Part shown: positions 6,593 through 33,759 of the stretch, piece after piece | Layout of the letters: every line of letters starts with the position of its first letter | Position numbering within the stretch: position 1 is the first letter of the stretch | Origin: Microbacterium sp. 8M | Lineage (GTDB): Bacteria > Actinomycetota > Actinomycetes > Actinomycetales > Microbacteriaceae | Assembly (NCBI RefSeq): GCF_902506375.1 | Contig: NZ_LR733284.1 | Coordinates: 3,323,771 to 3,387,770, forward strand | Direction: 5' to 3' | Length of the DNA: 64,000 bases | Notes under the pieces: model-generated | The model's database searches: none | Told to the model about the DNA's origin: nothing | The model's input: the letters and a program-made list of their open reading frames with translations, nothing else | Program-made: the position numbers and the translations under genes

Positions 6593-6734
6593 GACTCAAC
6601 CTTCGTTTGTGCTGGTATCTGTTCGACTTTGAATGTTTGATTTCGTCTCGAACGAGTCCGAGTATCTACTGAGTTCAGCGACGATGCAATGCCCTGCTTC
6701 GTCGGGTTCAGACGAAGGATGGGAACCGCCGGCG
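6593..6734. promoter_or_regulatory. Divergent promoter region with inverted repeat
   Basis: This 142-bp gap must hold the promoters of both divergent sugar operons. A 7-bp inverted repeat CTTCGTC-N7-GACGAAG lies at 6697-6717, just before the dehydrogenase start. Further TTCGT/AACGA half-like words occur at 6602-6606, 6642-6646 and about 6649-6654. Such words resemble DeoR-family sites, so the hybrid regulator is the natural candidate to bind here, but this is inference. Confidence 0.4.
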
Positions 6735-7754: not shown

Positions 7755-7816
7755 GGCCCGTCCCCACTCGCACCACCCGATCCGCATCACCTCATCCGTT
7801 CAAAGGAGAACCCCGC

Positions 7817-9103: not shown

Positions 9104-9121
9104 CACACGGTCGCTGAGCGC

Positions 9122-9199
9122 CCTTCGTCTCGTCGCTGCGCTCCTCGCTCAGGGACCGGCCCACCACCGGTTCCTGAGCGAGCGCAGCGACGCGAAGGA
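9122..9199. repeat. Dispersed palindrome, CTTCGTCTCG...CTCAGGGACCGG family
   Basis: The left arm (9122-9159) and right arm (9167-9199) are an imperfect inverted repeat of about 33 bp built from CCTTCGTCTCGTCGCTGCGC and CTCAGGGACCGG. Related sequence occurs at 63868-63947 and, in a shorter CTTCGACAAGCTCAGGG form, at 49393-49448. It lies between the binding-protein and permease genes, the position where REP elements sit between malE and malF in enterobacteria. Confidence 0.8.
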
Positions 9200-9240
9200 C
9201 CCGCCGCCCCCGCCACATCCACCCGAGCCGGAGCACCGAC

Positions 9241-10173
9241 ATGACCACGACCGCAGATCGACCACCCGCCACGGCGTCGCCGTCGCGCGCCGCGGCAGGG
9301 CGCCGGATGCGCCTGCGCAGCATCCTCGTCGGCTGGAGCTTCGTCCTGCCGAACTTCCTCGGCTTCGCCCTGTTCACCCTGGTCCCCGTGATCGCGGCGT
9401 TCGGGCTGGCCTTCATGAAGTGGGACGGCTTCAACGACCCCCAGTTCGTCGGGATCCGCAACTTCACCCGCCTGTTCGGCGACGACAACTTCCGCATCGC
9501 GCTGCTGAACACCGTGCTCTACGCCGTCGGCCACGTGCCGCTGACCCTGGCGTTCGCGCTCGGCCTCGCCCTCCTGCTGAACCAGAAGCTGCGCGGCATC
9601 GCCTTCTTCCGAGTGGCGATCTTCTTCCCCTACATCACCTCGCTCGTGGCGATCGCGATCGTCTGGAACATGCTGTTCAACCCCACCAGCGGACCGATCA
9701 ACCAGTTCCTGCAGACGCTCGGCATCGCCCATCCGCCGGGCTGGACGGCGAGCACGGGCTGGGCACTGCCCGCGGTGATCATCACCGGCGTCTGGCGCGA
9801 CATGGGGTACTACATGGTGCTCTTCCTCGCGGGACTCCAGGCCATCCCGAACGAGTACTACGAAGCCGCATCGGTGGACGGCGCCGGCGGCTGGCGCAAG
9901 TTCTGGAGCATCACGCTCCCGTCGCTGCGCCCCACGACGTTCCTCGTGCTCGTGCTGCTGAGCGTGTCGAGCTTCAAGGTGTTCGACCTGATCTTCGTGA
10001 TGACGCAGGGCGGGCCGGGGCGCGCGACGCTCGTGCTCTCCCAGCTCATCTACCAGGACGGCATCATCAACGGCCAGTTCGGCTACGCCTCCGCGATCTC
10101 ACTCGTGCTGTTCGTGATCGTGCTCGTCGTCACCGTCTTCCAGTTCCGGATCCAGCAGAGGAGGGAACGCTGA
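9241..10173 (+). CDS. CUT1 sugar ABC transporter permease (MalF-like)
   Basis: The 310-residue protein has six predicted membrane segments starting with FVLPNFLGFALFTLVPVIAA. It carries the cytoplasmic EAA loop YYEAASVDGAGGWRKFWSIT, which docks with the transporter's ATPase, followed by PSLRPTTFLVLV. This is the first of two permease subunits of the importer. It starts at ATG 9241 behind CCGGAG and is 137 bp downstream of the binding-protein stop, with a palindrome in the gap. Its last base is shared with the start of the second permease, so the two are translationally coupled. Confidence 0.93.
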   Translation: MTTTADRPPATASPSRAAAGRRMRLRSILVGWSFVLPNFLGFALFTLVPVIAAFGLAFMKWDGFNDPQFVGIRNFTRLFGDDNFRIALLNTVLYAVGHVPLTLAFALGLALLLNQKLRGIAFFRVAIFFPYITSLVAIAIVWNMLFNPTSGPINQFLQTLGIAHPPGWTASTGWALPAVIITGVWRDMGYYMVLFLAGLQAIPNEYYEAASVDGAGGWRKFWSITLPSLRPTTFLVLVLLSVSSFKVFDLIFVMTQGGPGRATLVLSQLIYQDGIINGQFGYASAISLVLFVIVLVVTVFQFRIQQRRER

Positions 10174-18636: not shown

Positions 18637-21246
18637 TCACGCGACGGTCGGGCGGATCCGGAAGCGGTGCGCGCCGGGGCCGACCGAATGGGCCTCTCCG
18701 TCCGGAAGACGGACGTCGGCGGTCGTGTTCGCCGGAATCTCCACATCGAAGGTCGTCGCCCCTGGTTCGACGGTCCACGAGCTCGCGACCCGGCCGTACG
18801 GGCTGTCGTACATCGCGGACGCGTGCGTGAGCGTGCCGCCGGGTACAGGCGCGATCGTGAATCGGTTGCCGCCGTCGACACGGATCCCGGCGACGGTGTC
18901 GAAGAGCCATTCGCACACGGCGCCGGGCGCGTAGTGGTTCCGGCTCGCCTCGCCGTCCCAGTCCTCCCAGACCGTCGTCGCGCCGGCTCTCACCTGAGCG
19001 AGCCAGCCGGGCGCCTGCTCGTTCTCGAGCATCCGGTAGGCGACGTCGGGATACCCGGCCTCGGTGAGCACCGGGAGGATGAACGGAGTGGAGAGGAACC
19101 CGGTTCCGATCGTGTGATTCCTGCTTTCCACAGCACGTACGAGACGACCGGCGACACGCTGCGCCGTCTCCCGGTCGAGAAGGCCGAACGCGAGCGGGCG
19201 TACGAGCTTGGCCTGACGGTCGGTGTCGATGCGCCCCGCCCGCACGAAGAGGTGGTTGTACGCCTTCTTCGCGCCCTCGGCGTACTCCGCGTAGCGCTCG
19301 GCATCCTCCGCTCGGCCGAGGTGCGTGGCGATCTCCGTGAGAAGGGTCATCGTGCAGTGCAGATATGCCGTCGCCTCCTCCGTGCAGACCGGACGCGACC
19401 GGGCCGAGACTTCATCCCGGAACTCTTTGGGCTCCAGCCACTCGCCGTAGTGGAAGCCCTTCTCATACGTGTACCTGTTGAAGGGGTTCGCCTTGGCGTC
19501 CCGGCGGCGCTTGTGCCCGGTGCGGGAGATCATGTACCGCGCGTAGCGCGCCATGGCCGGGTAGAACTCGTGGAGGACGCCCTCGTCCCCGTACCGCTTC
19601 CAGAACCGATAGGGCACGAGGACGAGCGCATCGGCCCATCCGACCGAGCCGCCGGATGTGTCGTACATCATCGGCACCCCGCTGTACGGGGCGACCGCCC
19701 GCGGCTTCCCGGAGCGCAGCTGCGAGTCCGTGAGGTCCCGCATCCATTTCCGGAAGAACGCAGCCACGTCCATGAAGTAGGCGGCGGTGTTGAAGAAGAC
19801 CTGCGCGTCGCCGGTCCAGCCGAGACGCTCCCGCGTCGGGCAGTCCGTGGGGACGTCGAGGAAGTTCCCCTTCATGCTCCAGCGGGTGTTCTCAACGAAG
19901 CGGTCGAGGGTCGGATGGGACGACGTGAACGTGCCCGTCTGCTCCATGTCGGAATAGACCGCGACCGCACGGATGGACGCAGGATCCATGTCCACATCCC
20001 CCTCGACGAGGGCGTAACGGAAGCCGGCGACAGTGAAGGCACACTGGTACTCGGTGACTCCGTCGGCGCATGTGATCCGGATCTCCTGCTTCGGTGTCGG
20101 CTCGAGCTCTCCCCGTACGAGACGCTGCTGACCGGTCATGAGCAGGAACTCCGCGATGTGTCCGAACTGCCGAGCCGGCTTGTCGATCTGGATGTTCTCC
20201 TGCGTGAACTCCCCGTGCTCGTCGAGGATCTCGCCCAGCCGGAGGCGGATCCGCTGCCCCGCCGTCCCGTCGACTCTGACCCGGATGAAACCAGCGATGT
20301 TCTGGCCGAAGTCGAGCACCGTCGCGCCGCTCGGGGTGGTGAGGACGGTCGCGGAGAACTCCTCCTGGATGCGCGCTGCGACGTTGTCGGATGCCGTCGG
20401 CACGGGTCCGGCCTTCGCCAGGCGTGCTCGACCGCGGTAGGTGGGCGCTCTGCGGGCGTCGAAGTGCTCTCCGTCTTTGAGGTCCGCGTACCGCAGCGGC
20501 CCGTCATTGCTCCACGCGAAGTCCGGCCCGGTCCCGATCGTCTCCGAGGTGCCGTCCGCGTAGGTGATCTCCAGTTGCGCGCGGAGTGCGGTGGTGTCGC
20601 CGAAGAGGCGCGTGACGCCGTAGGCGCCGACGGCCCCTCGGTACCAGCCGTCCGCGAGTCTCAGCTCGAGGTCGTTGTCTTCGTCCAACATGCGCGTGAC
20701 GTCGTACGTCTGGTACTGCACACGGGTCCGATAGTCCGTGCTGCCCGGGGCGAGCTGGAACTCCCCTACACGGGCGCCGTTGAGGTGCGCGTCATACAGG
20801 CCGAGGGCCGTCGCGTAGAGACGGGCACGCGCGATCGGCCCGCGGATGCGGAACCGGGTGCGGAAGCAGTCGACCGGATATCGCGTGTTCTTCTTCGGCT
20901 GGTAGTCGCCCGTGATCCAGCGCGCCGTCCAATCGTCCGCTTCGAGCAGCCCGAGTTCGAACCAGGATCCGATCGCCTCCTCCGGAACATCATTCTCGTC
21001 CCAAAGCGTCACAGACCAGTCGACGCGGTCGCGGCTGCGCAGCACGGGGCCCTCGTACGGGACGAGCAGCATCTGCGAGGAGGCGACCTTCCCGCTGTCC
21101 CAGAGGGGTTCGCCATCGCGCTCCGCGCGGATCCGATAAGCCGTCTGAGTCGTGCCGCCGGCGCAGTTCCAGGAGAAGCGCGGTGTTCGGACGCCGAGCC
21201 CGAGGGGTTCGTGCAGGTGTTCGGTCTTCAGGCGGATGGCCCGCAT
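18637..21246 (-). CDS. Alpha-L-rhamnosidase (GH78), stand-alone
   Basis: The 869-residue protein starts at ATG 21246 after GAAAGGAA; an upstream in-frame ATG would add 31 unrelated residues. It has the GH78 order: N-terminal beta domains (LNGARVGEFQLAPGSTDYRT, YQTYDV), the alpha/alpha-barrel with DCPTRERLGWTGDAQVF at about residue 460, and VWEDWDGE near residue 755. The acidic residues in these two motifs are the likely general acid and base of this inverting family. No signal peptide is present, so it should act in the cytoplasm on alpha-L-rhamnosides. It is the last gene of the MFS/GH78-GH3 operon, 13 bp after the hydrolase gene, and its CPTRE-RLGW motif differs from the CPQRDERLGW of the fusion enzyme, suggesting a distinct specificity. 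Confidence 0.93.
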   Translation of the reverse strand: MRAIRLKTEHLHEPLGLGVRTPRFSWNCAGGTTQTAYRIRAERDGEPLWDSGKVASSQMLLVPYEGPVLRSRDRVDWSVTLWDENDVPEEAIGSWFELGLLEADDWTARWITGDYQPKKNTRYPVDCFRTRFRIRGPIARARLYATALGLYDAHLNGARVGEFQLAPGSTDYRTRVQYQTYDVTRMLDEDNDLELRLADGWYRGAVGAYGVTRLFGDTTALRAQLEITYADGTSETIGTGPDFAWSNDGPLRYADLKDGEHFDARRAPTYRGRARLAKAGPVPTASDNVAARIQEEFSATVLTTPSGATVLDFGQNIAGFIRVRVDGTAGQRIRLRLGEILDEHGEFTQENIQIDKPARQFGHIAEFLLMTGQQRLVRGELEPTPKQEIRITCADGVTEYQCAFTVAGFRYALVEGDVDMDPASIRAVAVYSDMEQTGTFTSSHPTLDRFVENTRWSMKGNFLDVPTDCPTRERLGWTGDAQVFFNTAAYFMDVAAFFRKWMRDLTDSQLRSGKPRAVAPYSGVPMMYDTSGGSVGWADALVLVPYRFWKRYGDEGVLHEFYPAMARYARYMISRTGHKRRRDAKANPFNRYTYEKGFHYGEWLEPKEFRDEVSARSRPVCTEEATAYLHCTMTLLTEIATHLGRAEDAERYAEYAEGAKKAYNHLFVRAGRIDTDRQAKLVRPLAFGLLDRETAQRVAGRLVRAVESRNHTIGTGFLSTPFILPVLTEAGYPDVAYRMLENEQAPGWLAQVRAGATTVWEDWDGEASRNHYAPGAVCEWLFDTVAGIRVDGGNRFTIAPVPGGTLTHASAMYDSPYGRVASSWTVEPGATTFDVEIPANTTADVRLPDGEAHSVGPGAHRFRIRPTVA

Positions 21247-21259
21247 GCAGGCGTTCCTT

Positions 21260-22144
21260 TCAGGATCGGAGGATGTGGACGACGTGGTCGAAGGCACGCT
21301 TCGCTTCGGGAGTAGCCGAACGCATGAGCCCCACGGCATGGTTCACGTCCGGAGAGTACGCGAGCGTCCCGGCATTGCCCGCCAGGCGCAGGAGGCGGTG
21401 GGCATCCAGCGCCTGCGTCAGGAGCGCATCGCGCCCGCCCGTCACCACGTGCACGGGTGGGAGACCGCTGAATCCTCCGTGGAGGGGGCTGACGGCGGGG
21501 TCGGACGTCGAGAGGTCGCCGGCCCAGGCGCGTCCCCACAGCCGGAGTTCCGCGGGGTCGAGGATGACGTCCCAGCGCTCGAGCGCAGGGACAGCGGGGT
21601 GCGCGAGCTCGACGTCGAGCCACGGGTTCAGCAGCACCGCGGCGCGGATCCCCTCGGGCCGCCGCTGCAGCACGCTCAGCGCCAGACCGCCGCCCGCCGA
21701 GTCGCCGGCGAGATAGACCTGCTCCGCACCTCGCTCGGCGATCGTCTCGTCGAGGACCTGGGCAACGAATCCGTGCGCGCGGGCCGCGTCACCGACAGGA
21801 ACGACCTCGTACAGCGGTACGACGGCGTCGATGCCGGCGGCCAGCGCGTACTGCGCGACGGCGATCCAGTGCGCCGTCGAGACCGGATGCGCGTATCCGC
21901 CGCCGGGGAGGAAGACGACCGCGCGGCCGGGTGGCGCCTCCCGACGACGAAGGGTGACGACGCGCGATCCGGCCACTCGCGCCTCGCCGACGACGAAGCG
22001 CTTGGCGACGGACGCGGGTACAGGCGCCGGCGCGGGTGCCCCGTCCGCGTGACGCCGGGCGATCTCAGCGATGACACCCTGCTTGCCGCCGCGGGACATG
22101 ACGCGTTCGACGATGGCATCCAACGCCAGCGCTCTGATCGACAT
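21260..22144 (-). CDS. Alpha/beta hydrolase, HSL-like esterase
   Basis: The 294-residue protein starts at ATG 22144. It has an alpha/beta-hydrolase-3 fold with the oxyanion-hole stretch FLPGGGYAHP (Pro replaces the His of the classic HGGG), the nucleophile elbow GDSAGGG at about residue 150, an Asp in TGGRDALL and a His in DVNHAVGLM. It would hydrolyse small acyl esters in the cytoplasm. Between a rhamnosidase and an epimerase gene, it may remove acyl groups (acetyl or phenylpropanoyl) from plant glycosides before or after deglycosylation. That role is inference from context. Confidence 0.88.
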   Translation of the reverse strand: MSIRALALDAIVERVMSRGGKQGVIAEIARRHADGAPAPAPVPASVAKRFVVGEARVAGSRVVTLRRREAPPGRAVVFLPGGGYAHPVSTAHWIAVAQYALAAGIDAVVPLYEVVPVGDAARAHGFVAQVLDETIAERGAEQVYLAGDSAGGGLALSVLQRRPEGIRAAVLLNPWLDVELAHPAVPALERWDVILDPAELRLWGRAWAGDLSTSDPAVSPLHGGFSGLPPVHVVTGGRDALLTQALDAHRLLRLAGNAGTLAYSPDVNHAVGLMRSATPEAKRAFDHVVHILRS

Positions 22145-22170: not shown

Positions 22171-23634
22171 TCAGCGTCGCGCCGGACCGGGCAGCGACGT
22201 GCGCGGCGCGGAAAGCTGGGCGAGGAACGGGTTGCGCTCGGCCTGGCGCTCGTGGCCGGCGCTGTCGCGCGTGCACTCCGGACACCAATGACCGCCGATG
22301 AGGACGAGGAACGGGCTGCCGGCGAAGATGTGCCCGAACGCGCAGCTCCAGATCAGGGGCTCGCGCGGACGTCCGCTCCGCACGACCGGTGAGACGAGCT
22401 CCCCGCCTCGGAACCCCGCGGCCTGGACGTAGTCGGCACGATCCCAGTCGCCGGGTGAGATCTCCTCGTCGAAACCGTGGTCGAGATACGACGGCGCACG
22501 CGAGGGCTCCGGACCGGTGAAGGTCGACCAGTCGCCGATGGCCCGCCACTCCGCCAGCGATCCGAAGTGCGCTCGGATCGCAGACTCGTCGCGCTGCGAG
22601 ATGGCATGCATGGTTCCGCGAGGCATCCGGGTGAGCGGGCGCATCACGAGGTTCTTCACGATCCAGCCGGGCACCCGCCCGGCCGCCCTGACCGAACCCG
22701 GCAGCGTCGCGACGGCGCGCACGAGCGCCTGATCGAAGGTGTCGCGACGGAACGGCACGAGCTGGTCGAGCGTGTCGCTGTCGGTGTACCAGTGCCCGTG
22801 GAAGTTCCGGGTGGCGAACCAGTTGCGGTCGTACCAGCGGCGCACGTCGGCGACACCGAGGGCCCCGCTGATCGCCGTCTGCAGCTGCCAGTTCGTCAGC
22901 CGCCACTGCGCGCCGCCGCCGATGTTGTAGATCCCACCCCAGAACTCCTCGGGCAGCTCTCGTTCGGCGATGCCGGCGAGCAGGCGCGCGGAATCCTCGG
23001 CGGTCACCCATTCCATCACTCCGCCCAGGGTGGAGTGGGTCATGATCGGGTCGCGCAGGGCGAGCATCCCCGGATGGAAGATTCCGGTCTGGCGCAGCCA
23101 CGCCCACCTCGGCAGCGACGATTCGACGAGCAGCTTCTCCGCGACGACCTTCGTCTGGCCGTACTCGTCGAACTGGGACACGCGGATGGGGTCGCCGATC
23201 CGGCCCCAATGGATCGGCGGGGTGCGGTCGCCGGTCTCAGCGACGGAACCGATCCCCACGACGCCGACCGATCCGGGATCGGGCAGGGCCGCTACAGCGC
23301 GGATGATGTTCTGCATGCTCCCGGTGTTGACTCGCTGGGCGAGCTCGGGATGCTCGTCGGCGAGCGGGGAGACCACAGCCCCGACGTGGAGGATCAGATC
23401 GACGTCCTGGACGGCTCGCTGGACGTCGGCGTAGTTCAGCAGGTCGCCCCAGAACACCTCCACGTTCTCCGCGTCGGCGAACTCGTCCAGCACCGCCCGG
23501 TCACGCGGCGTATCCAGCGCGAACGCGATGACACGCATCCGATCGCCTCGTTCATGGAACTCTCGGAGCGCCGCACGGCCCCAGTTGCCCGTGGCGCCGG
23601 TGAGCAGGACGCGGGTTCTCGGGTCGCGGGTCAC
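22171..23634 (-). CDS. SDR-type NAD-dependent epimerase/dehydratase with C-terminal zinc-ribbon-like module
   Basis: The 487-residue protein starts at GTG 23634, overlapping the stop of the fusion enzyme by 4 bp. Residues about 1-300 are an extended SDR: LLTGATGNWGRAAL is the NAD(P) loop and YGQTKVVAEKL supplies the catalytic Tyr and Lys. A further stretch to about residue 430 is rich in Arg and aromatic residues. Near residues 440-465 the sequence reads WSCAFGHIF, then HWCPEC, a C-x3-H...C-x2-C arrangement like the DUF4379 zinc-ribbon-type module (W-x-C-x2-GH...GCPxC). This tail is unusual for an SDR. The enzyme may act on a sugar or on the aglycone released by the neighbouring glycosidases. 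Confidence 0.85.
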   Translation of the reverse strand: MTRDPRTRVLLTGATGNWGRAALREFHERGDRMRVIAFALDTPRDRAVLDEFADAENVEVFWGDLLNYADVQRAVQDVDLILHVGAVVSPLADEHPELAQRVNTGSMQNIIRAVAALPDPGSVGVVGIGSVAETGDRTPPIHWGRIGDPIRVSQFDEYGQTKVVAEKLLVESSLPRWAWLRQTGIFHPGMLALRDPIMTHSTLGGVMEWVTAEDSARLLAGIAERELPEEFWGGIYNIGGGAQWRLTNWQLQTAISGALGVADVRRWYDRNWFATRNFHGHWYTDSDTLDQLVPFRRDTFDQALVRAVATLPGSVRAAGRVPGWIVKNLVMRPLTRMPRGTMHAISQRDESAIRAHFGSLAEWRAIGDWSTFTGPEPSRAPSYLDHGFDEEISPGDWDRADYVQAAGFRGGELVSPVVRSGRPREPLIWSCAFGHIFAGSPFLVLIGGHWCPECTRDSAGHERQAERNPFLAQLSAPRTSLPGPARR

Positions 23635-26600
23635 GAGGCGACCATGCCCAGCTCGGCGGCGCCGCTGAGGCTCAACGCGATCAGCTGCTCGAGCGCTTCG
23701 TCGGGGATCTCCACGCCGGGGAATCGTGCGAACTGGCCCATCGGCATCGACTCGACCATCCGGAGCATGTTGCCGTTCGCTTCGGCGGCTGCGAGCTGCT
23801 CCTCCGTCGCTCCCGCCATCATCGCCTGCATGAGCGCGGGCCCGACCACCGGGTGGCCGAACCAGTCGCCGACCGTGGATTCGAGTGACAGGGCTTTCGG
23901 CGCGTCCACATCGCCCTCGAGGTCGATCACGTGCTCCCCGACGATGTGCTCCGCCGAGTCGCCGAGCTGGACCGCGTAGCGGTCGGGGGCCACCCGCCAC
24001 CTCGACCGCGACGTATCCCAGAAGGCGAACACCCGTCGGTTCAGCGGGATCTCGACCGTGATCGACTCGCCCGGCTCGAGGGTCACCTTCGTGAAGCCGG
24101 CGAGTTCCCGGATCGGGCGTCGAACCGGGGCGCTCTGGGGCGCGACGTACAGCTGCACCACATGCGCACCGGCAACAGCACCGGTGTTCGTGACCCGGAC
24201 GCGCGCGACCGCGCTGTCGGAGCCCGTTGTCTCCACGTCCAGGATGGACTCGAACCTGGTGTAGCTCAGGCCGTGCCCGAACGGATACCGCACGTCACGC
24301 CTCACGGTCGTGTAGTAGCGGTAGCCGACGAAGATGCTCTCGCTGTACCGCACGCCCTCGTTCTCGCCGGGGAAGGAAAGGTACGACGGGGTGTCCTCGA
24401 GCCGCAGCGGGATGGTCTCCGCGAGGCGGCCGGACGGGTTGATCGCCCCCGTGAGCACCGCGGCGAGCGCGTACCCGACGGCCTGGCCGAGCGCCCATCC
24501 CTCCACGATCGCGTCGACGCTGTCGTGCCACGGCTCGAGGGTCACGACACCGCCGTTGGAGAGCACGACGACGGTGCGCGGGGCGACGCCCGCGACCGCC
24601 TGGATGAGACGGACGTGCGCGTCGGGCAGATCGATGTGCGTGCGATCGAAGCCCTCCGACTGGTCCTCCTCGTACAGGCCGACGAACACGACGGCGACGT
24701 CGGCGTCGCCGGCCACCTGGACCGCCTCCTCGCGCAGACCCGCATCGGCCTCCGGATGCTTCCGGTCGTAGCCCGCCGCGTAGGAGACGCCCGCGCCGAG
24801 ACGGGCACGCAGCTCGTCCAGCGGGATGTCCAGCTTCGTCGGGTTGACGTGCGAGCTGCCTCCGCCCTGGAACTGCGGCTCGACGGCCAGCTGCCCGAGC
24901 ACGGCGACCCGCTCGCCCTGCCGCAGGGGCAGCGCGTCGTTCTCATTGCGCAGGAGCACGATCGCCTCGCCCGCTGCCCGCCGGGCCAGGTCGTGATGAG
25001 AAGCCGGGTCGAACGGGTCGCCGCCGCCCGCAGGTTCCGTGCGCTCGGCGAGTCGTGCCAGCCGGGCGACGCTGCGCTCGACCACGGAACGGTCGAGCCG
25101 GCCCTCGCGGACGGCGGCGATGATCGCACGCGCGCCTTCATCGCCGGTTCCGGGCATCTCCAGGTCGAGGCCTGCCTTCAGCGCCTCGACCCGGTCCTTG
25201 ATGGCCCCCCAGTCGGAGACGACGAGCCCATCGAAGCCCCATTCGTCGCGAAGCAGCTCGGTGAGCAGCCACGCGTTCTCGGAGCAGAAGGCGCCGTTGA
25301 CGGAGTTGTAGGCGCTCATGACGGTCGCCGGCTGAGCCTCGGTGACCACCTGCTCGAACGCCGGCAGATAGATCTCGCGCAGTGCCCGCTCATCGACCTG
25401 CGCGTCCACCCGCATCCGCTCGGTCTCCTGGTTGTTGACTGCGAAGTGCTTCAGGGATGCGCCGACGCCGGTGCCCTGCACGCCGTGCACGTATTCGGTG
25501 GCGAGCGCCCCCGTGAGTCGCGGATCCTCGGAGAAGTACTCGAAGGTGCGTCCACCCAGCGGCGAGCGCTTGATGTTGATGGCCGGCCCGAGCAGGACAT
25601 CGACGTCCAGGGTGCGCGCCTCGCGGCCGAGCGCTGCACCGACCTCTCGCACCAGCGCCGGATTCCAGGTGGAGCCCATGCCGACCCCGGGCGGGAAGCA
25701 CGTCGAGGGGAGGCTCTCGTTGAAGCCGAGGTGGTCGGCGTCACCGCCCTGACGCCGCACGCCGTGCGGGCCATCGACCAGCACGAGCGAGCGGATCCCG
25801 TCCCCTTCGCGCGTCGACCAGAAGTCCCGTCCGGTGAGCAGCGCCGCATCACGGGCGAGGGCGTCGTCTTCCGCAGTCGGCTCCGGGGCGGTGATCACGT
25901 CCTCCGGCACCGGTTCGCCCGCGCTGACGGCGGCGAAGCCGCGCTCGAGGTCCGCGAGCACCGCGTCCGGGTTCACGAGCATCCCCGCGATCTGGCGGGG
26001 CGTGACCGCTTCCTGCCCGCGCAGTCCGGACGCCATGTGCTCGGCGGCCTCAGGGATGTGCTTGGTGATCACGCCGGTGAGGACGGCCATCGCCTCTGTG
26101 CTCTCGGCGAGTGTTCCGAGCGGAGTGTCGACCGTGACCGTGACGGGCGCGTCCTGGTCGGTCTCGAACGGCTCCGCGAACTCATGCGCACCATGGCCGA
26201 CCACGTGCCGGCCGCCCGAGGGCAGCATCACCTCGGCCGTGACTCCGACCGGCACGCGCACCGCCAGCCGGATGGAGCCGTCCTGCAGCGTCCACCCGCT
26301 TTCGACGACGCCGTAGGGCGTCATGAGACGCCCGGACGCCGCGGTGAGTCCGCGGCGCGGAGGCTGCGGCGCGACGCGGACCGTCCGGTAGCCGGGTGCT
26401 GCGGGCGCGAGACCCGCCACGACGCGGTGCAGCCAGTCCCCGACCGCGCCGAACGCGTAGTGGTTGAACGACGTCATCCCGGAGGGGTTCACCGTGCCGT
26501 CCGGCAGGAGCGAGTCCCACCGCTCCCAGATGGTCGTCGCGCCCTGCGCCACGCTGTACAGCCAAGACGGCGCTTCGGTCTGGAACAGGAGACGGTACGC

Positions 26601-28694
26601 CGTATCCAGGTGTCCGTTGGCCGAGAGCGCGTCGCAGATGAGCGGTGTGCCGATGAACCCGGTCGAGATGGTGAAGCCGTTCGACCGCACGATCTCGGCG
26701 AGCCGGTCAGCAGCGCGCGTGCGAGCTGCGGCATCCCCGATGAGATCGAACTGCAGCGCGAGCGCGTAGGCGGTCGCCGAGTCCGACAGGAGCCGCCCGG
26801 ATGCGGAGACGTATTCGCGACGGAACGCGGTGGCGACCTCGCCCGCGAGCGCACGGAACCGCTCGCCCTCCGCCCGCCCCAGGAGCTCTGCCGCATCCGC
26901 GACGATGCGTGCCGATCGGGCGAAGTACGCCGTCGCGACGATCTCCGGGTATGTCGCCGCTGCCTCCGGGCGACCGGCGGGCGCCGACGGGTCGAGCCAG
27001 TCGCCGAACTGGAACCCTGCCGACCAGATCCGGTCGGATCCGGCTGCCGCCTCCACCTCGGAGACCCAGGCAGCCATCGAATCGAACTGCCGTGCGAGGA
27101 CACCCAGGTCACCGGACGCCTGATACAGCGTCCACGGAACCACCGTCGCGGCATCCGCCCAGCCGGCCATCGGCCCGGTGTAGCCCGTCGTGATCGCGGG
27201 CACCACCATCGGCGTCCCTCCGTAGCGGGTCTGCTCGGCGGAGAGGTCCTTCAGCCACGACGTCAGGAATCCAGCGGTGTCGAACAGGTACTCCGCGGTC
27301 GGGGAGAACACCTGCAGATCACCCGTCCACCCGAGTCGCTCGTCGCGCTGCGGGCAGTCGGTGGGCAGGTCGACGAAGTTGCCGCGCATTCCCCACACGA
27401 TGTTCTCGTGGAGTCGCTCCAGCCGGGGGTCGGAAGCGGTGAACCAGCCGGTGCGCTCCATGTCGGAGTGCAGAACCTCCGCGACGATCGCCGACGGGTC
27501 CAACTCGCCGGGCCATCCCGTCACCTCGGCGTACCGGAAGCCGTGGAAAGTGAACCGCGGCGCCCACTCCTCCACGTCTCCGCCCCGCAGAACGTAGGTG
27601 TCGGTCGCCTGCGCTCCGCGCAGCGGCTCGGTCGCGAGCTCGCCTCCTTCCAGGACCTCGGCGTGCCGCAGGATGACGGTGTCACCGGCTTCTCCGGCGA
27701 CCCTGATCCGCAGCCGCCCGACGAGGTTCTGACCGAAGTCGAGGATGGTGCGCCCCGACGGCGAGATCGAGACCTCGGCGACCGCGACGGTCTGCGTGGC
27801 CCGCACCGGCGGTCCGTCGGGCGCGACGAGCAGTGCCGGGTCGAGCTCCGCGACTGTCACCGCTGTCCAGCCCTCCGCCGTGCCGCTCGCAGTCGCCCAT
27901 TGGGGGTCGACGAGGCGGGCGTCGAACTGCTCGCCGTTGTAGAGGTCCGCCGAGACGATGGGTCCCGTCGTGCTCTCCCACGAAGAATCGGTCACGATGA
28001 CACGCAGATCGCCGTCCTCGTATTCGACCTCCAGTTGGGCGAGCAGGCCTAGTTCCGTGCCGTACCATTCCCGGCGCCCGTCCCAGCCGAGGTACCCACG
28101 CCACCAGCCATCCGCGAGCCAGGCACCGATGGTGACCTCGCCGCCGCCGACGAGATCGGTGACATCGTAGGTCTGGTACCGCAGCCGTGACTCATACGCC
28201 GTCCACCCCGGTGCGAGCTCGTCGTCTCCGACACGCTGCCCGTTGATCTCCAACTGGTACACCCCGTGGGCCGTGGCGTACACGCGGGCGCGGCGCACGG
28301 GCTTCGCGGGCAGTTCGGCCGTTCGGCGCACGAGCGCCGCCGCTCCCGCGACGGGTGCGACAAGCCGAGCGGTCCAGTCGCCCGGCTGCAGAAGGCCCGC
28401 CTCGACCTGCGCCCAGTCCGACCAGTGGGAGGCGTCCCCGTCCTCACCGATCACGCGCACCCTCACCGACGCGCATGCACGCGACGTCAGTTCGGCGAAC
28501 GGCCAGGGCACGAGCACCGACTCGCGGCTGCCGACGCGGACGACCTCGCCGGATTCGCTCTCGAGCTCGTATGCGCTCTGCACCCAGCCAGGCGGGGCGT
28601 CCTCGACGATCCAGCTCAGCCGCGGTGCGGACTCGCCGATGCCGAGCGCGTCGCGGTGGTGCTCGAAGCGGACAGGAGTGACGGTGACGGTCAT
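23631..28694 (-). CDS. Bifunctional GH78 alpha-L-rhamnosidase / GH3 beta-glycosidase fusion
   Basis: This 1687-residue protein starts at ATG 28694 and has no signal peptide. Residues about 1-840 are a complete GH78 enzyme: beta domains (QLEINGQRVGDDELAPGW, YQTYDVTDL), DCPQRDERLGWTGD near residue 448 and TTIWERWDSLL near 720, which hold the expected acidic catalytic residues. A linker of about 110 residues follows. Residues about 950-1600 are a complete GH3 enzyme: VLVDGPHGVRR, KHFAVNNQETERM, the nucleophile Asp in LVVSDWGAIKD near 1160, the C-terminal sandwich and a FnIII-like domain. A helical tail closes the protein. GH78 removes terminal alpha-L-rhamnose and GH3 removes beta-glucose, so one chain could take apart rhamnosyl-beta-glucosides of the rutinose/neohesperidose type. 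It follows the MFS gene by 16 bp. Confidence 0.95.
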   Translation of the reverse strand: MTVTVTPVRFEHHRDALGIGESAPRLSWIVEDAPPGWVQSAYELESESGEVVRVGSRESVLVPWPFAELTSRACASVRVRVIGEDGDASHWSDWAQVEAGLLQPGDWTARLVAPVAGAAALVRRTAELPAKPVRRARVYATAHGVYQLEINGQRVGDDELAPGWTAYESRLRYQTYDVTDLVGGGEVTIGAWLADGWWRGYLGWDGRREWYGTELGLLAQLEVEYEDGDLRVIVTDSSWESTTGPIVSADLYNGEQFDARLVDPQWATASGTAEGWTAVTVAELDPALLVAPDGPPVRATQTVAVAEVSISPSGRTILDFGQNLVGRLRIRVAGEAGDTVILRHAEVLEGGELATEPLRGAQATDTYVLRGGDVEEWAPRFTFHGFRYAEVTGWPGELDPSAIVAEVLHSDMERTGWFTASDPRLERLHENIVWGMRGNFVDLPTDCPQRDERLGWTGDLQVFSPTAEYLFDTAGFLTSWLKDLSAEQTRYGGTPMVVPAITTGYTGPMAGWADAATVVPWTLYQASGDLGVLARQFDSMAAWVSEVEAAAGSDRIWSAGFQFGDWLDPSAPAGRPEAAATYPEIVATAYFARSARIVADAAELLGRAEGERFRALAGEVATAFRREYVSASGRLLSDSATAYALALQFDLIGDAAARTRAADRLAEIVRSNGFTISTGFIGTPLICDALSANGHLDTAYRLLFQTEAPSWLYSVAQGATTIWERWDSLLPDGTVNPSGMTSFNHYAFGAVGDWLHRVVAGLAPAAPGYRTVRVAPQPPRRGLTAASGRLMTPYGVVESGWTLQDGSIRLAVRVPVGVTAEVMLPSGGRHVVGHGAHEFAEPFETDQDAPVTVTVDTPLGTLAESTEAMAVLTGVITKHIPEAAEHMASGLRGQEAVTPRQIAGMLVNPDAVLADLERGFAAVSAGEPVPEDVITAPEPTAEDDALARDAALLTGRDFWSTREGDGIRSLVLVDGPHGVRRQGGDADHLGFNESLPSTCFPPGVGMGSTWNPALVREVGAALGREARTLDVDVLLGPAINIKRSPLGGRTFEYFSEDPRLTGALATEYVHGVQGTGVGASLKHFAVNNQETERMRVDAQVDERALREIYLPAFEQVVTEAQPATVMSAYNSVNGAFCSENAWLLTELLRDEWGFDGLVVSDWGAIKDRVEALKAGLDLEMPGTGDEGARAIIAAVREGRLDRSVVERSVARLARLAERTEPAGGGDPFDPASHHDLARRAAGEAIVLLRNENDALPLRQGERVAVLGQLAVEPQFQGGGSSHVNPTKLDIPLDELRARLGAGVSYAAGYDRKHPEADAGLREEAVQVAGDADVAVVFVGLYEEDQSEGFDRTHIDLPDAHVRLIQAVAGVAPRTVVVLSNGGVVTLEPWHDSVDAIVEGWALGQAVGYALAAVLTGAINPSGRLAETIPLRLEDTPSYLSFPGENEGVRYSESIFVGYRYYTTVRRDVRYPFGHGLSYTRFESILDVETTGSDSAVARVRVTNTGAVAGAHVVQLYVAPQSAPVRRPIRELAGFTKVTLEPGESITVEIPLNRRVFAFWDTSRSRWRVAPDRYAVQLGDSAEHIVGEHVIDLEGDVDAPKALSLESTVGDWFGHPVVGPALMQAMMAGATEEQLAAAEANGNMLRMVESMPMGQFARFPGVEIPDEALEQLIALSLSGAAELGMVAS

Positions 28695-28710: not shown

Positions 28711-30051
28711 TCAGCGGACGGAGCGGATGCGGAGGATGACGAGCCCGCCGAGGAGGACGAGCGCCGCGGCGATGATGAACAGCAGGGAGTAGTTCTTCTC
28801 GTGGCCGCTCACTCCGATGAGCAGGATCCCCGAGGCGACGAGCGGGGCCGCCGCCTGCGGGATGGAGGTGGCGAACCCCGTGATCCCCATGAACCGGCCC
28901 GCATCCGTCTCCTTCTCCGGGAGGACGTCGAGAAGGAGAGCCTGATCGACCGCGGAGAACGCGCCGATGCCCGTTGAGACGATGAGCGAGCCCGTGATCA
29001 GCGTGGGCAGGCCCGGCGCCAGAGCCATCGTGAGCATTCCCGCGGCCATCAGCGCGCCGCCGAGCAGGACGAAGACCTTGCGGCGCCGGAAGCGGTCGGA
29101 GAGGAAGCCGCCGCCGATGGCCCCGGCTGTCACCGCGAGCACGCCCGCACCGCCGAGTGCCGCGATGATCCCGGCGACCTCCGTGACGGGCACACCGAGC
29201 CGGCTGGCGAAGAAGAACGCGGTGAAGGTCGTGTTCAGGGTGAGGCCGAAGTAGAAGAGGAACCGCCCGAGCCAGTTCCACGAGAAGTCGGGATAGCGAC
29301 GCGGGTTGTACAGGTACTTGCCGAGGAGTCCGGCGAAGCCGATCCGCTCGCGGGGCAGCCCCCGGCTGTCGTCCTCGTGGACGAGCGTGACGAACAGGGT
29401 GACCAGGACGACGCCGACGGCACCCGGGAGGAGGAAGAGCAGGAGCGGGTTTCCCGTGAACCCGGAGGTGAGGATGACGCCGAAGACGGGCGCGATCTGC
29501 GTGGCGAAGCCGGTGAGGCCGGCGACCTTGCCGCGCTGTGATTCGGGCAGGCGGTCCGCGGTGGAGATGCCCAGGTTGCTGAAGACCGTTCCCCAGCCCC
29601 ACTGCGCCAGGATCCACCCCAGCCCGAGCGGCACGATCGACGGGGCGACCGCCATCCACACGAGCGAGATGACGCCCACGATCATGCCGCCGATCATGAA
29701 CGGCCGGCGACGGCCGATGCGGGTGCGCGTGCGGTCGCTCCACACGCCCATGAAGGGGGCGGTGACCATGACGAACAGGGCGCCCGCGCCGGTGATGTAG
29801 CCCAGGTACTCGTCGTGCCCCGGCGCGATCGCCTGCACTCGGATCGCGAGCGAGATCGCGATCGGGGTGATGAAGGCCATGAAGACGCCGAACTGGGCGA
29901 GGACCATGAACCAGATGTAGCGGGCGCCGACCTTCTCCAAGGTCGACGGGATGCGGTCCTGTTCGTCGAGGATTTCTGCGGGGACGCTCGGGGAGGGCAT
30001 GGCCGTCGGCATCGCGGCGATGACCGGTTCGTCGTCGATCGGGTTCGTCAT
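28711..30051 (-). CDS. MFS transporter, probable glycoside importer
   Basis: The 446-residue protein starts at ATG 30051. It has a cytoplasmic N-terminal tail of about 45 residues and then 12 hydrophobic segments. The first intracellular loop WSDRTRTRIGRRRPFMIGG carries the MFS motif (D-R-x-x-x-R-x-G-R-R). This looks like a glycoside/sugar importer branch of MFS, common beside glycosidase genes in actinobacteria. It is the first gene of the operon, directly behind a LacI-controlled promoter. Because all downstream glycosidases lack signal peptides, this protein most likely brings in the intact glycoside. The exact substrate is inference. Confidence 0.88.
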   Translation of the reverse strand: MTNPIDDEPVIAAMPTAMPSPSVPAEILDEQDRIPSTLEKVGARYIWFMVLAQFGVFMAFITPIAISLAIRVQAIAPGHDEYLGYITGAGALFVMVTAPFMGVWSDRTRTRIGRRRPFMIGGMIVGVISLVWMAVAPSIVPLGLGWILAQWGWGTVFSNLGISTADRLPESQRGKVAGLTGFATQIAPVFGVILTSGFTGNPLLLFLLPGAVGVVLVTLFVTLVHEDDSRGLPRERIGFAGLLGKYLYNPRRYPDFSWNWLGRFLFYFGLTLNTTFTAFFFASRLGVPVTEVAGIIAALGGAGVLAVTAGAIGGGFLSDRFRRRKVFVLLGGALMAAGMLTMALAPGLPTLITGSLIVSTGIGAFSAVDQALLLDVLPEKETDAGRFMGITGFATSIPQAAAPLVASGILLIGVSGHEKNYSLLFIIAAALVLLGGLVILRIRSVR

Positions 30052-30078: not shown

Positions 30079-30130
30079 CTAGCACGAGCTAGTGATGTCA
30101 CTATAGGGGCGTTAAGCTAGCACGTGCAAG
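30079..30130 (-). promoter_or_regulatory. LacI-type double operator bracketing the MFS-operon promoter
   Basis: On the minus strand a -35 TTGCAC (30129-30124) and a -10 TATAGT (30105-30100) are 18 bp apart. One operator, CTAGCACGAGCTAG (30079-30092), lies just past the -10. A second, CTAGCACGTGCAAG (30117-30130), overlaps the -35. Both are 14-bp near-palindromes around a central CG, as LacI-family operators usually are, and their centres are 38 bp apart. The divergent LacI gene starts 34 bp beyond the second site, so it probably represses the operon and itself. Confidence 0.8.
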
Positions 30131-30163: not shown

Positions 30164-31171
30164 GTGACGAAGCCGGAAGCCCTGAAACGCGTGACCGCCG
30201 CGGACGTCGCGCGCGCGCTGGGCATCTCCCGCGCCACGGTCGGCTTCGTCCTGAACAACACCCCCGGCCAGACGATCTCCCACGCCACCCGGGAACGCGT
30301 GCTCGCGGAGGCCAAGCGCCTCGGGTACCGGCCGCACGCCGCCGCACGGACCCTCCGCAGCGGGCAGAGCCGGATCGTGCTGCTGATCCTCCCGGACTGG
30401 CCGATGGACTACAGCATGCGCACGCACCTGGACGAGGCCTCGCTCGTCCTGGATCGGGCCGGCTACTCGCTGGTCACCATGACCCCGCACCCCGGCGGTC
30501 AGGCGCAGCCGCTCTGGGAGACTCTCCGTCCCGACGTGGTCCTCGGAATGGCCGCGCTTCCGCGGAAGACGATCGCCGCGATCCACGACAGCGGCGTGCC
30601 GCACGTGATCGCCGAGGTCCTCGAAGACCAGCAGGGCCCGTCCGATGACGGCCTGCGGTATGCGGAGGGGCCGCGTCTTCAGGTCGAGCACCTGCTCGCG
30701 CAGGGCCGCACGCGCCTGGCCTTCGCCGGGTCATCGGATCCGCGGATCGCGGAGCTGGTCCGCACCCGGCGCGCCCTCGCCGTACGCACCCTTCTCGAGC
30801 GGACGGGCCAGGGCTTCGCCGCGGATGCGGACCTGGATCCGACCACTGCCGGGAACGTCGTCGAAGCGTGGCTGGCAGACGGAATCGACGGCATCGTCGC
30901 CTACAACGACGACATCGCCGCCCTCGCGGTGGGCGCCGTCCTCCGCGCGGGACGCACCGTCCCCGGCAACCTGGCGGTCGTCGGCCACGACGACAGCCCC
31001 CTGGCTTCGCTCTTCGTGCCCAGCCTCACGAGCGTGCGCGTCGACACTGCCGGCCTCGGGCGTTACGTCGCGGAGCTCGCACTGAGCGCAGCGACGGATG
31101 CACCGAGGCCGGAGGCGGGGCCCGAGACCGAGGCGCGGCTCATCGTCCGCGAGTCCACCGCCGCGCGCTGA
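30164..31171 (+). CDS. LacI family transcriptional regulator of the rhamnoside operon
   Basis: The 335-residue protein starts at GTG 30164 behind AGGAAGGAG. The N-terminal HTH and hinge are clear (VTAADVARALGISRATVGFV, then AKRLGYRPHAAARTLRSGQS), with a LacI-type sensor domain after residue 62 (IVAYNDDIAALAVGAVL, LAVVGHDDSPLASLFVPSLT, RLIVRESTA). Divergent placement and two matching operators point to control of the MFS-glycosidase operon. The inducer is unknown, probably an imported glycoside or released sugar. It converges on the amylase gene across a strong bidirectional hairpin. Confidence 0.93.
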   Translation: MTKPEALKRVTAADVARALGISRATVGFVLNNTPGQTISHATRERVLAEAKRLGYRPHAAARTLRSGQSRIVLLILPDWPMDYSMRTHLDEASLVLDRAGYSLVTMTPHPGGQAQPLWETLRPDVVLGMAALPRKTIAAIHDSGVPHVIAEVLEDQQGPSDDGLRYAEGPRLQVEHLLAQGRTRLAFAGSSDPRIAELVRTRRALAVRTLLERTGQGFAADADLDPTTAGNVVEAWLADGIDGIVAYNDDIAALAVGAVLRAGRTVPGNLAVVGHDDSPLASLFVPSLTSVRVDTAGLGRYVAELALSAATDAPRPEAGPETEARLIVRESTAAR

Positions 31172-31299: not shown

Positions 31300-33492
31300 C
31301 TACTTCCAGGTGTCGTTGAGCGTCACGGATCCGGACGATCCGGTGGTGTAGCTGCGGTTCGCGCCGCTCTCCCAGGTGACGGCGCCGTTCGCGTCCTTCA
31401 CGATGTACTTGTACTGGAAGGCGGTGGACGCCGGGATGGACACCGTGGCGGACCAGACCGGGTACGACGCCGGGTCCATCTTGATGGCGGCCCCGGTGTT
31501 CCAGCTGCCGAGCGCGGGGATCGATCCGACCACGTACACGTTGCTGCCCCAGGTCGTCGTCTCGTTCTCGTTGAACGTGACGGCGACGGTGGGCGCGGGC
31601 GGCGGCGTCGCCGTGGTGCCGTTCAGCTGATCGGTGAGGGAGGCGGTCGCCCCGCTGCCCGTGGTCGCCGTGTGGTTGCTGCCGGACTCCCAAGTGACGG
31701 TGCCCGATGCGTCCTTCTGGATGTACTTGTACTGGATGGCGGTGCTCTGCGGCAGGTTCACCGTGACGGTCCAGGAGGAGCCGGACTGCGTCATCGGGAT
31801 CGCCGACGCGGGCGCCCAGCTGCCCAGCTCGGCGATGGATCCGACCAGGTACACCGGCGTCGATCCCGTCTCGCCGTTCACGGTGAACGTCTCCGCGACC
31901 TGGCCGGCCGTCGGGGTGGGCGTCGGCGTGCTGCTGCCGGTCGGCGTCGGGGTCGGCGTGGCGGTTCCGGTGAGGCCGTACAGGGCGACCGCGTCCTTCG
32001 CGGGTACCGTCACCGAGGCGTTCCCGCTGCTGTCGACCGTGATCGACGTGCCGGTGCAGGCGCCGGTGGATGCGGTGTAGTCGCCGTGGATCACGTCGCA
32101 GTAGCTGCCGGCCGGGAGACCGGTCGCGAACGTGCGGGTCTGCGCGGAGGTGCCGTTGTTGATGGCCACCCAGGCCTTGCTGCCGCGGCTGAACGAGATG
32201 AGGTTCGCACCGTCGCTGTACCAGTTCGCGACGGGCTGGCCGGTGGCCGCGTTGCGCCAGCCGACCATGTTCGCCACGGCGCGCGTGCGGTCGGTGCAGT
32301 ACCAGCCGTTCGCGCAGTCGGTGTCGGTGACGAACCCGTTCGCGTCGGACGGCGGGGAGTCGTCGGTCGAGTTCCAGGTGAAGCTGGCATACACCTGCGG
32401 CGTTCCGTAGCCCCACGCGAGATGGAAGACGTTCGCGAGCACGTACGTGGATCCGGCCTTGTAGTTGAGGCTCGACCCGTTGCGCTCGGTGTCGTGGTTG
32501 GTCACCATCGTGCCCGAGGAGGCGGAGGGCTCGATGCCCCAGCTCTGACCGAGAGTGGCGAGGTTCGCGATGTTGCCGGTGAACTGGTTCTTCAGCGCCG
32601 TGGCGTAGGTGAACTCGATCACCTGCCCCATGCCCTCGTATGCGCTCGGCGCGAGACCTCCGGATCCGCCCGGCATGACCTCCTGCAGCACATACGGACG
32701 GGATCCGGTCCACGTCGTGTTGTGCACGCCGCTGAGGATCGCGGACAGGTCGTTCGCGTTGATGTGCTTGGCGGCGTCGAGGCGGAAGCCGTCGACGCCG
32801 AGGTCGACGAGCTGGTTCAGATACGCGGTCTCGGTCGAGCGGACGTGGCTGCTCTCGGTCTTCAGGTCCTCGAGCGACACGAGCTCGCACTCCTGGACCT
32901 GGGTCTGGTTGTTCCAGTCGTTGATCGCGAGGTTGCTGTTGGGGCAGTCGTTCGGATAGGCGTGGAAGTCGCTCGCCGTGTAGCCGGGCTGCGCGTAGGA
33001 GTGCGACGACGCGCTGAAGCTGACCCCGCCGTAGGAATCGGTCGTGGTCTGGTTGTCGCCCGCCATGTGGTTGAGCACCGCGTCGACGTACACCTTGACC
33101 CCGGCGTTGTGGCAGGTGGTGACCATCGCGGCGAACTGCGCCGCCGTGCCCATCCGGCTGTTGAGGTCGTAGCCGACCGGCTGGTAGACCTCCCACCACG
33201 GATGGGTCGACTGGTTCAGCCGCACGGAGTCCTGCGGCGGGGCCACCTGCACGGCGCCGTAGCCCTTGGGACCGAGGACGTTCGTGCATTCGGCGGCGAC
33301 CGAGTGCCAGTTCCACTCGAACAGGTTGGCGACGACGTCGCCGCCGTTGGGCGTACTCGCCTGTGCCGCTCCGGACATGGCGAGAGGGACCAGGGCGCCG
33401 ACGGCCAGCGCGCCGGTCAGCATCCAGGCGGCACGAGTGGCCGTGGTTCGTCTCGAGGGCGCGTGTGCGGCAGCTCTGCGGTCGAGGGGCAT
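31300..33492 (-). CDS. Secreted alpha-amylase (GH13) with two CBM20 starch-binding domains
   Basis: The 730-residue protein starts at ATG 33492 behind GGAGCAACG. A signal peptide of about 45 residues ends near AAQA-STP. The GH13 barrel follows with VYVDAVLNHM, the nucleophile in GFRLDAAKH, the acid in VLQEVMPGG and the third acidic residue in VTNHDTERNG, close to Streptomyces-type alpha-amylases. After the C domain a TPTPTPT-rich linker (about residues 505-525) leads to two tandem CBM20-like domains (VYLVGSIAELGSW and VYVVGSIPALGSW) with QYKYI and WESG motifs. It should bind raw starch and release maltodextrins outside the cell for the nearby ABC importer. Its promoter carries cre-like operators. 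A twin CBM20 tail is less common than a single one. Confidence 0.95.
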   Translation of the reverse strand: MPLDRRAAAHAPSRRTTATRAAWMLTGALAVGALVPLAMSGAAQASTPNGGDVVANLFEWNWHSVAAECTNVLGPKGYGAVQVAPPQDSVRLNQSTHPWWEVYQPVGYDLNSRMGTAAQFAAMVTTCHNAGVKVYVDAVLNHMAGDNQTTTDSYGGVSFSASSHSYAQPGYTASDFHAYPNDCPNSNLAINDWNNQTQVQECELVSLEDLKTESSHVRSTETAYLNQLVDLGVDGFRLDAAKHINANDLSAILSGVHNTTWTGSRPYVLQEVMPGGSGGLAPSAYEGMGQVIEFTYATALKNQFTGNIANLATLGQSWGIEPSASSGTMVTNHDTERNGSSLNYKAGSTYVLANVFHLAWGYGTPQVYASFTWNSTDDSPPSDANGFVTDTDCANGWYCTDRTRAVANMVGWRNAATGQPVANWYSDGANLISFSRGSKAWVAINNGTSAQTRTFATGLPAGSYCDVIHGDYTASTGACTGTSITVDSSGNASVTVPAKDAVALYGLTGTATPTPTPTGSSTPTPTPTAGQVAETFTVNGETGSTPVYLVGSIAELGSWAPASAIPMTQSGSSWTVTVNLPQSTAIQYKYIQKDASGTVTWESGSNHTATTGSGATASLTDQLNGTTATPPPAPTVAVTFNENETTTWGSNVYVVGSIPALGSWNTGAAIKMDPASYPVWSATVSIPASTAFQYKYIVKDANGAVTWESGANRSYTTGSSGSVTLNDTWK

Positions 33493-33602
33493 CGTTGCTC
33501 CATCCAATGCGGGCCGGGGTGTCGTCGCACGCCGGCGGAGGGGCGGTCGACGATGCCCTGGACAGGTGTCCGCGCCCACGGGGATGCGGACGCGGACACC
33601 AC

Positions 33603-33759
33603 AATGAAGCACGAGAAGGAGAGCCGTCAAGAGAAATCTGGAAGCGCTTGCATCTTGCGTCAGCTGTGAAACAGGCTGTAACAGCGGAATTCCGCGCCTA
33701 TCCGCGATGACTCTCCATGAAAGGGCAACTGCGAGCCCGTTCTACTGCAAACGCTTACA
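33603..33759 (-). promoter_or_regulatory. Amylase promoter with two cre-like LacI-family operators
   Basis: On the minus strand a -35 TTGACG (33630-33625) and a -10 TTCATT (33608-33603) are 16 bp apart. Operator TGGAAGCGCTTGCA (33639-33652) lies 8 bp upstream of the -35 and TGCAAACGCTTACA (33746-33759) about 110 bp upstream. Both match TGNAANCGNTTNCA at every fixed position. The LacI gene at 33819-34865 is the natural ligand. The rest of the 326-bp gap shows no gene. Confidence 0.7.

Follow-up and report, generated by a model that had tools for sequence, protein, structure and literature searches.

One open reading frame encodes a GH78 and a GH3 enzyme

The window (the whole stretch of 64,000 nucleotides from Microbacterium sp. 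8M that was analyzed) carries on its minus strand a GH78-GH3 fusion gene of 1687 codons (23631..28694), which starts with an ATG at 28694, ends with a TGA at 23631 and contains zero internal stops. A sequence-only reading of this DNA had claimed a complete GH78 enzyme followed by a complete GH3 enzyme in a single uninterrupted frame of 1687 residues; frame reading and Pfam bore this out, placing the GH78 enzyme at residues 5-833 and the GH3 enzyme at about 945-1600, and the two motifs named at the time, DCPQRDERLGWTGD and VVSDWGA, were both located in the frame. All Pfam matches in the two halves exceeded their gathering scores.

The GH78 part (residues 5-833; 26196..28682, minus strand) is made of five Pfam domains, Ig_Rha78A_N (5-103), Bac_rhamnosid_N (131-301), Bac_rhamnosid (312-409), Bac_rhamnosid6H (PF17389; 413-759, 405.7 bits) and Bac_rhamnosid_C (761-833), so that the six-hairpin domain typical of the family comes with four more domains. 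Its closest solved structure by sequence is 6gsz (773 bits over residues 4-839), a GH78 alpha-L-rhamnosidase from Aspergillus terreus that has its catalytic motifs in common with the fusion but stands on its own, without a GH3, and that we take to be an enzyme of small glycosides. A Foldseek search with the AlphaFold model of residues 1-965 (mean pLDDT 79.6) also ranked 6gsz first (TMt 0.91, 44% identity). Two glutamates, E452 (27339..27341, minus strand) and E724 (26523..26525, minus strand), align with glutamates of 6gsz and 3w5m and are presumed, from the GH78 literature, to be the general acid and the general base, respectively. Since the pLDDT falls below 50 at residues 444-461 and 716-734, the stretches that hold these two residues, the model is silent on the geometry of the active site. 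The NCBIfam model for Streptomyces-type alpha-L-rhamnosidases (NF041573) gave 794.1 bits, below its curated score of 1720.

The GH3 part (residues about 946-1581; 23952..25859, minus strand) comprises Glyco_hydro_3 (997-1215), Glyco_hydro_3_C (1245-1478, 183.1 bits) and an Fn3-like domain (1511-1581). D1161 in VVSDWGA (25212..25214, minus strand) and E1347 in SEGFDR (24654..24656, minus strand) are the residues that we take, again from the literature, to be the nucleophile and the acid/base, so that the N and C domains and both catalytic residues of a GH3 enzyme are in place according to Pfam and to an alignment of 15 fusions. The nearest solved structures by sequence are the beta-glucosidases 7ms2 (668 bits), 5wab and 8j9f, and Foldseek with the AlphaFold model of residues 835-1687 (mean pLDDT 79.0) returned 9lql, 7ms2, 8j9f and 5wab at 43-46% identity; the models of both halves thus retrieved the same structures as sequence comparison did. 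These BglB-type enzymes (7ms2, 8j9f/9lql, 5wab) are separate proteins without a GH78, unlike the fusion, and the sequence match of 7ms2 and 8j9f takes in the C-terminal tail of its GH3.

The fusion is conserved in at least 13 genomes

Genome-wide searches scored two or three candidates per genome, so that counts of fusions are lower bounds. Of 366 genomes from the genus, at least 12 have the full-length fusion, one being that of the window and the remaining 11 encoding proteins of 69-83% identity; among 398 genomes sampled from the family, at least one more, of another genus, has it (G944, 74% identical). No further full-length fusion was seen among the matches listed from samples of the order (396 genomes) and of the phylum (396 genomes). 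The 13 full-length fusions, the window's included, are called type A hereafter, and the fusions of two other genomes (G161 and G330) are called type B. A query with type B reached the cut-off in 1 of 179 and in 1 of 197 genomes, both times the same genome (G418), with its GH78 only.

A stop codon or frameshift between the two domains was looked for and none was found: the orthologous loci of the genus read as one open frame in 11 cases out of 11, and an apparent TGA inside the match in G080, G261, G384 and G283 proved by its coordinates to be the gene's own 3' stop. Because full-length orthologues are conserved in 12 other genomes (11 of the same genus and one of another), a mis-assembly, a chance frame, a frameshift or a chimera is ruled out. 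E452, E724, D1161 and E1347 are identical in all 15 fusions that were aligned (13 of type A and two of type B) and Pfam and the structure-linked alignments agree, in keeping with the earlier claim that both catalytic sets are intact. Compared with the nearest orthologue (L160), dN/dS was 0.14 for the GH78 part, 0.14 for its tail and the linker, 0.16 for the GH3 part and 0.09 for the GH3 tail; compared with L184 and L161, the tail and linker were looser (0.30 and 0.43) than the GH78 (0.20 and 0.23) and the GH3 (0.19 and 0.26). No close plasmid copy was found, as all 453 plasmid records with a match, among which records very near the fusion's own genome were perhaps omitted, were below 60% identity.

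Helical tails follow both enzymes

The region between the two enzymes might have been taken for a new linker. This idea was for the most part rejected, since the stretch is largely a tail that is found on separate GH78 proteins: residues 841-925 align with the C-terminal tail of GH78s from operons in which the two enzymes are encoded by split genes. Helices at residues 859-862, 866-879, about 882-890, 899-904 and 909-925 appear in both AlphaFold models, which have the 13 type-A rows of their alignments in common, and we annotate residues 859-925 (25920..26120, minus strand) as a GH78 helical tail that now lies between the enzymes. A second helical tail, seen in the AlphaFold model, closes the GH3 half (residues about 1604-1680; 23655..23885, minus strand).

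Comparing profiles of the two tails gave a probability of 81-85% locally and of 57% in global mode, with a score of 33.8; none of 100 column shuffles scored as high (maximum 17.0) and a reversed profile scored 10.7. The comparison used 61 of 184 GH78 rows and 33 of 34 GH3 rows, with limits on tail length and leaving out the two type-B rows and two cases from metagenome bins (L026 and L034), and it still gave 81% without the type-A rows. Because this score lies far above those of the shuffles, GH78 and GH3 enzymes probably carry related helical tails, two of which the fusion would hold. That the tails serve as docking modules is our guess.

The fusion lies beside a transporter and a divergent LacI-type regulator

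Upstream of the fusion, at a distance of 16 bases, lies a gene for an MFS transporter (28711..30051, minus strand; Pfam MFS_1), followed by a divergent gene for a LacI-family regulator (30164..31171, plus strand; Pfam LacI and Peripla_BP_3), and all 13 type-A loci have the two genes. On the 3' side, the GTG start of an SDR/NAD-epimerase-like oxidoreductase gene (22171..23634, minus strand) overlaps the stop of the fusion (GTGA), as its Pfam match and our reading of the junction indicate. An alpha/beta hydrolase gene (Abhydrolase_3; 21260..22144, minus strand) and then a gene for a second, separate GH78 of 869 residues (18637..21246, minus strand) come next, and both are probable members of the operon. 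The SDR-like gene occurs in 5 of the 13 type-A loci (the window, L160, L166, L167 and L184), with a partial match in L165; its product in the window matches 3Beta_HSD weakly, and a pair of cysteines can be seen by eye close to the C-terminus. Inspection by eye found no signal peptide at the N-terminus of the fusion.

A motif scan revealed two operator-like palindromes without strand assignment between the LacI and MFS genes of the window, CTAGCACGAGCTAG at 30079..30092 and CTAGCACGTGCAAG at 30117..30130. The common form, CTWGCNCGNGCWAG, sits in this spacer in 22 of 26 loci, a count that left out L176 (its operon being closely like that of L175): twenty loci have two copies that are 37-44 bases apart, one (L179) has a single copy and one (L095) has three. 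No palindrome was found at the tested place in L027, L189, L173 and L174. The motif was derived from these same spacers, and the rest of each locus was therefore used as the control: these loci contain 47 sites that deviate from the motif at one position at most, and 44 of them fall in the stretch between LacI and MFS. The two spacer sites of the window are among its four matches to a longer form of the motif with at most two mismatches, for a chance mean of 0.34. Elsewhere, two overlapping copies with one mismatch each lie away from the fusion at 19020-19046 of L160, beside a gene whose product is 34% like the second LacI-type protein of the window. This operon and its palindromes, the nature of the inter-domain region as a GH78 tail, and the split and otherwise fused relatives had not featured in the sequence-only reading.

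Split relatives occur in a like gene setting

Separate GH78 and GH3 genes were found in a like setting in six genomes of the same genus (G001, G337, G140, G230, G364 and G377), in another member of the family (G915), in another member of the order (G663) and in Saccharopolyspora flava. Arthrobacter sp. 135MFCol5.1 has such a pair with an SDR gene between the two, and the pair of Actinomadura rifamycini lies in a more loosely similar setting. Seven of the 11 split junctions that were read are ATGA overlaps of stop and start. In the stretch examined from Arthrobacter sp. S39 (L036), a GH78 matched but no GH3 did, so that it gives no direct link to the potato glycoalkaloid clusters.

On plasmid pLRE138 of Rhodococcus erythropolis R138 (L189, NZ_CP007257.1), a strain from hydroponic potato pots, genes annotated as L-rhamnose isomerase, rhamnulose-1-phosphate aldolase/dehydrogenase and rhamnulokinase directly precede the genes for MFS, GH78 and GH3; transposase genes lie on both flanks of this run. 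A plasmid of Lactiplantibacillus plantarum (L190, NZ_CP042259.1) has the order GH3, GH78, MFS, adjoining genes for a rhamnose isomerase, an aldolase and a mutarotase. The fusion's own genome has a counterpart of the rhamnulose-1-phosphate aldolase/dehydrogenase (76% identical) next to two further GH78s, in a second GH78 cluster at G000:C2:3061442-3071023 that lies some 275 kb away. A search of this genome for PF06134, the isomerase of the E. coli type, had no hit.

One GH3 clade is paired with three GH78 lineages

In a GH3 tree of 34 distinct rows, from 52 frames that cover more than 85% of the core, one clade (97/94) unites the fusions of type A (13) and type B (two) with the GH3s of the split pairs in G001 and G915; its sister (100/99) is a row from an Ancrocorticia metagenome bin (L026). 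GH78 trees were built with 66 and 49 rows, from 184 distinct rows out of 203 frames. In the tree of 66 rows, made with a quick method and SH-aLRT values only, type A forms a clade of its own (100), type B falls in another lineage together with a separate GH78 from the window's genome (100) and the split-operon GH78s except that of Actinomadura make up a third (100). The GH3 clade is thus paired with three GH78 lineages and, because the GH78s of types A and B belong to separate ones, our sequence trees place it in fusions with at least two.

Instead of several separate fusions, one could picture a single ancient fusion in which another GH78 later replaced the original one. The common GH3 clade would fit such a history, and so would an AU test that leaves the order inside the clade unsettled, as it rejects neither type A alone as a clade (p 0.121) nor A plus B (p 0.187). 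We nevertheless consider it rather doubtful, given that the two GH78s are of separate lineages in the quick tree, that the domains of type B are some 32 residues apart and without the GH78 tail that type A has there, that the MFS gene near type B differs (33%) and that no match to the LacI gene was found at type-B loci. For the split genes of G001 and G915, the tree hints at fission of an older fusion, which the AU test does not show.

Two weaker cases of fusion, each from a single metagenome bin and left out of the neighbor clusters, came to light. In L026, a GH78 that belongs to the split-operon lineage has its C-terminal half in frame with the GH3; in L034 (Propionicimonas), another GH78 is joined to a remote GH3 (36%), with a frame change near the end. 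Within L026 (4449-13834), the GH78 match ends near residue 394 and resumes about 4.66 kb further on (5342 to 10001), a gap that may reflect an insertion, a mis-assembly or pieces of two genes. Further GH78 pieces lie at 2151-4227.

A two-step exo-glycosidase for imported rhamnosyl-hexosides is the favored reading

We propose, with a probability of roughly 0.7, that the fusion is a cytoplasmic two-step exo-glycosidase for imported rhamnosyl-hexosides. The MFS carrier would let in an intact rhamnosyl-hexoside, from which the GH78 domain would take off the terminal alpha-L-rhamnose, and the GH3 domain would next take the exposed beta-linked hexose, most likely glucose, off the aglycone, while the LacI protein would repress the operon at both palindromes until an inducer binds. 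The fusion would then fix at 1:1 two enzymes whose genes elsewhere lie next to each other, often with an overlap, and have the same LacI and MFS neighbors. That rhamnose is released inside the cell is best argued from pLRE138, where rhamnose catabolic genes run into those for MFS, GH78 and GH3. The aldolase/dehydrogenase of the fusion's own genome also speaks for the proposal, and the missing PF06134 isomerase and the four loci without a palindrome speak against it.

Candidate substrates are of two kinds. Flavonoid rutinosides or neohesperidosides would fit the resemblance of the GH78 half to 6gsz, whose substrates are small glycosides. Steroidal glycoalkaloids or saponins with a rhamnosyl-hexose would fit because the split relatives resemble glycoalkaloid-degrading clusters; the GH78 lineage of the fusion differs from that of the split operons, so that substrates need not agree. 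One paper describes degradation of alpha-chaconine and alpha-solanine by Glutamicibacter halophytocola S2 with clustered GH78, GH3 and GH2 genes, and reports that RhaA and GluA can each remove several sugars alone (PMC9597252); two potato-peel Arthrobacter strains bear glycoalkaloid-degrading clusters (PMC6473145) and work on Arthrobacter S41 and Glutamicibacter is cited (PMC10653915). Going by families and gene sizes, which is how we compared them, the RhaA-GluA-GalA locus of strain S2 is like our split relatives in its clustered GH78 (2487 bp) and GH3 (2340 bp), and it differs from the fusion in having separate genes and a GH2. A GH2 also lies near GH78 and GH3 genes in L179, L056, L057 and L061, which match the published clusters in family make-up. 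Two points tell against the glycoalkaloid reading: the several sugars that RhaA and GluA can each remove, and the window's lack of this three-gene (GH78, GH3 and GH2) make-up of a locus for trisaccharide glycoalkaloids, as judged from a single GH2 query, that of L179, which had no match there at an E-value of 1e-5. Among seven genomes presumed to be near Glutamicibacter, one GH78 match (L188) was found. In the Geodermatophilaceae loci (L056, L057 and L061), the GH2 adjoins a GH3 like that of the fusion, and two GH78 matches lie a few kb off.

The sequence-only reading had seen in the fusion the classical naringinase pair. Its single chain, domain order and presumed catalytic sets stand, but the channeling that it proposed is a conjecture and a rutinoside or neohesperidoside substrate fits no better than steroidal glycoalkaloids or saponins do. 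Likewise, the beta-glucosidase label agrees with the nearest solved structures, but the best NCBIfam model for the GH3 half is an exo-alpha-(1->6)-L-arabinopyranosidase (NF041610), at 839.4 bits, below its curated cut-off of 1300, while the beta-d-glucosidase model NF052330 gave 482 bits (curated 1300). The GH3 half might thus be mainly an alpha-L-arabinopyranosidase or a beta-galactosidase, the pair then stripping rhamnose and arabinose or galactose from saponin-like chains. NF041610 is also the top NCBIfam model for six other GH3s tested (796-919 bits for those of L189, L179, L173, L057 and L026, and 143 for the partial one of L034); all seven nonetheless score below the cut-off and beta-glucosidases are nearest by both sequence and fold, which makes this specificity unlikely. 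We give still less credit to a role in the breakdown of pectin (rhamnogalacturonan) oligosaccharides, which we regard as highly improbable. GH78 enzymes are also active in breaking down pectin, but no pectinase family turned up among the 8 window proteins and 10 related-locus proteins scanned, and the GH78 half is closest to the presumed small-glycoside enzyme 6gsz.

A more serious rival, to which we nevertheless give somewhat less than even odds, is that the two domains do not cooperate on one molecule, the fusion fixing co-expression only and the halves working without channeling. Between the domains lie a helical tail and a linker, and, as three GH78 lineages pair with the GH3 clade, no tight fit between domains seems to be needed; against this, the pairing recurs in the same order, and type A and most split loci lie beside the same LacI and MFS genes. 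Enzymes with rhamnosidase and glucosidase activity in one domain have been reported (PMC9597252; PMC10071772), so that two domains need not mean two activities. Beyond the favored two-step reading, one may speculate that a LacI-switched glycoside operon of Actinomycetota keeps its GH3 and swaps its GH78, that overlapping genes were joined into single chains on several occasions, each time with another GH78 lineage, and perhaps came apart again (G001 and G915), and that related tails dock the separate pair, the fusion making a non-covalent complex permanent; we consider this scheme rather unlikely.

Relation to known enzymes

The two families and the idea of combining them are already known, as are single enzymes with dual activity and artificial fusions. 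PMC12155574 terms naringinase a complex of enzymes and cites engineered fusion naringinases (Luo 2024), artificial rhamnosidase-glucosidase fusions made for aglycones such as naringenin. Naringinase has the same two activities that would be expected of the fusion, and the engineered form is, in that source, also one chain; the chain described here is natural. No natural GH78-GH3 chain was found in our literature search, which covered listings of papers and passages of two reviews. What tells more is that GH78 and GH3 are paired repeatedly in one gene setting. Nature supplies both a chain conserved in at least 13 genomes and, as ready-made controls, split versions from the same gene setting, so that one can test whether fusion brings faster two-step deglycosylation or equal dosage only. 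The loci form a group by which soil and plant bacteria may import plant glycosides and eat or disarm them.

Next to the locus, at 31300-33630, lies a gene for an alpha-amylase with two CBM20 stretches; past it, up to 36238, the translations show by eye another LacI-type gene and an amylase-like gene.
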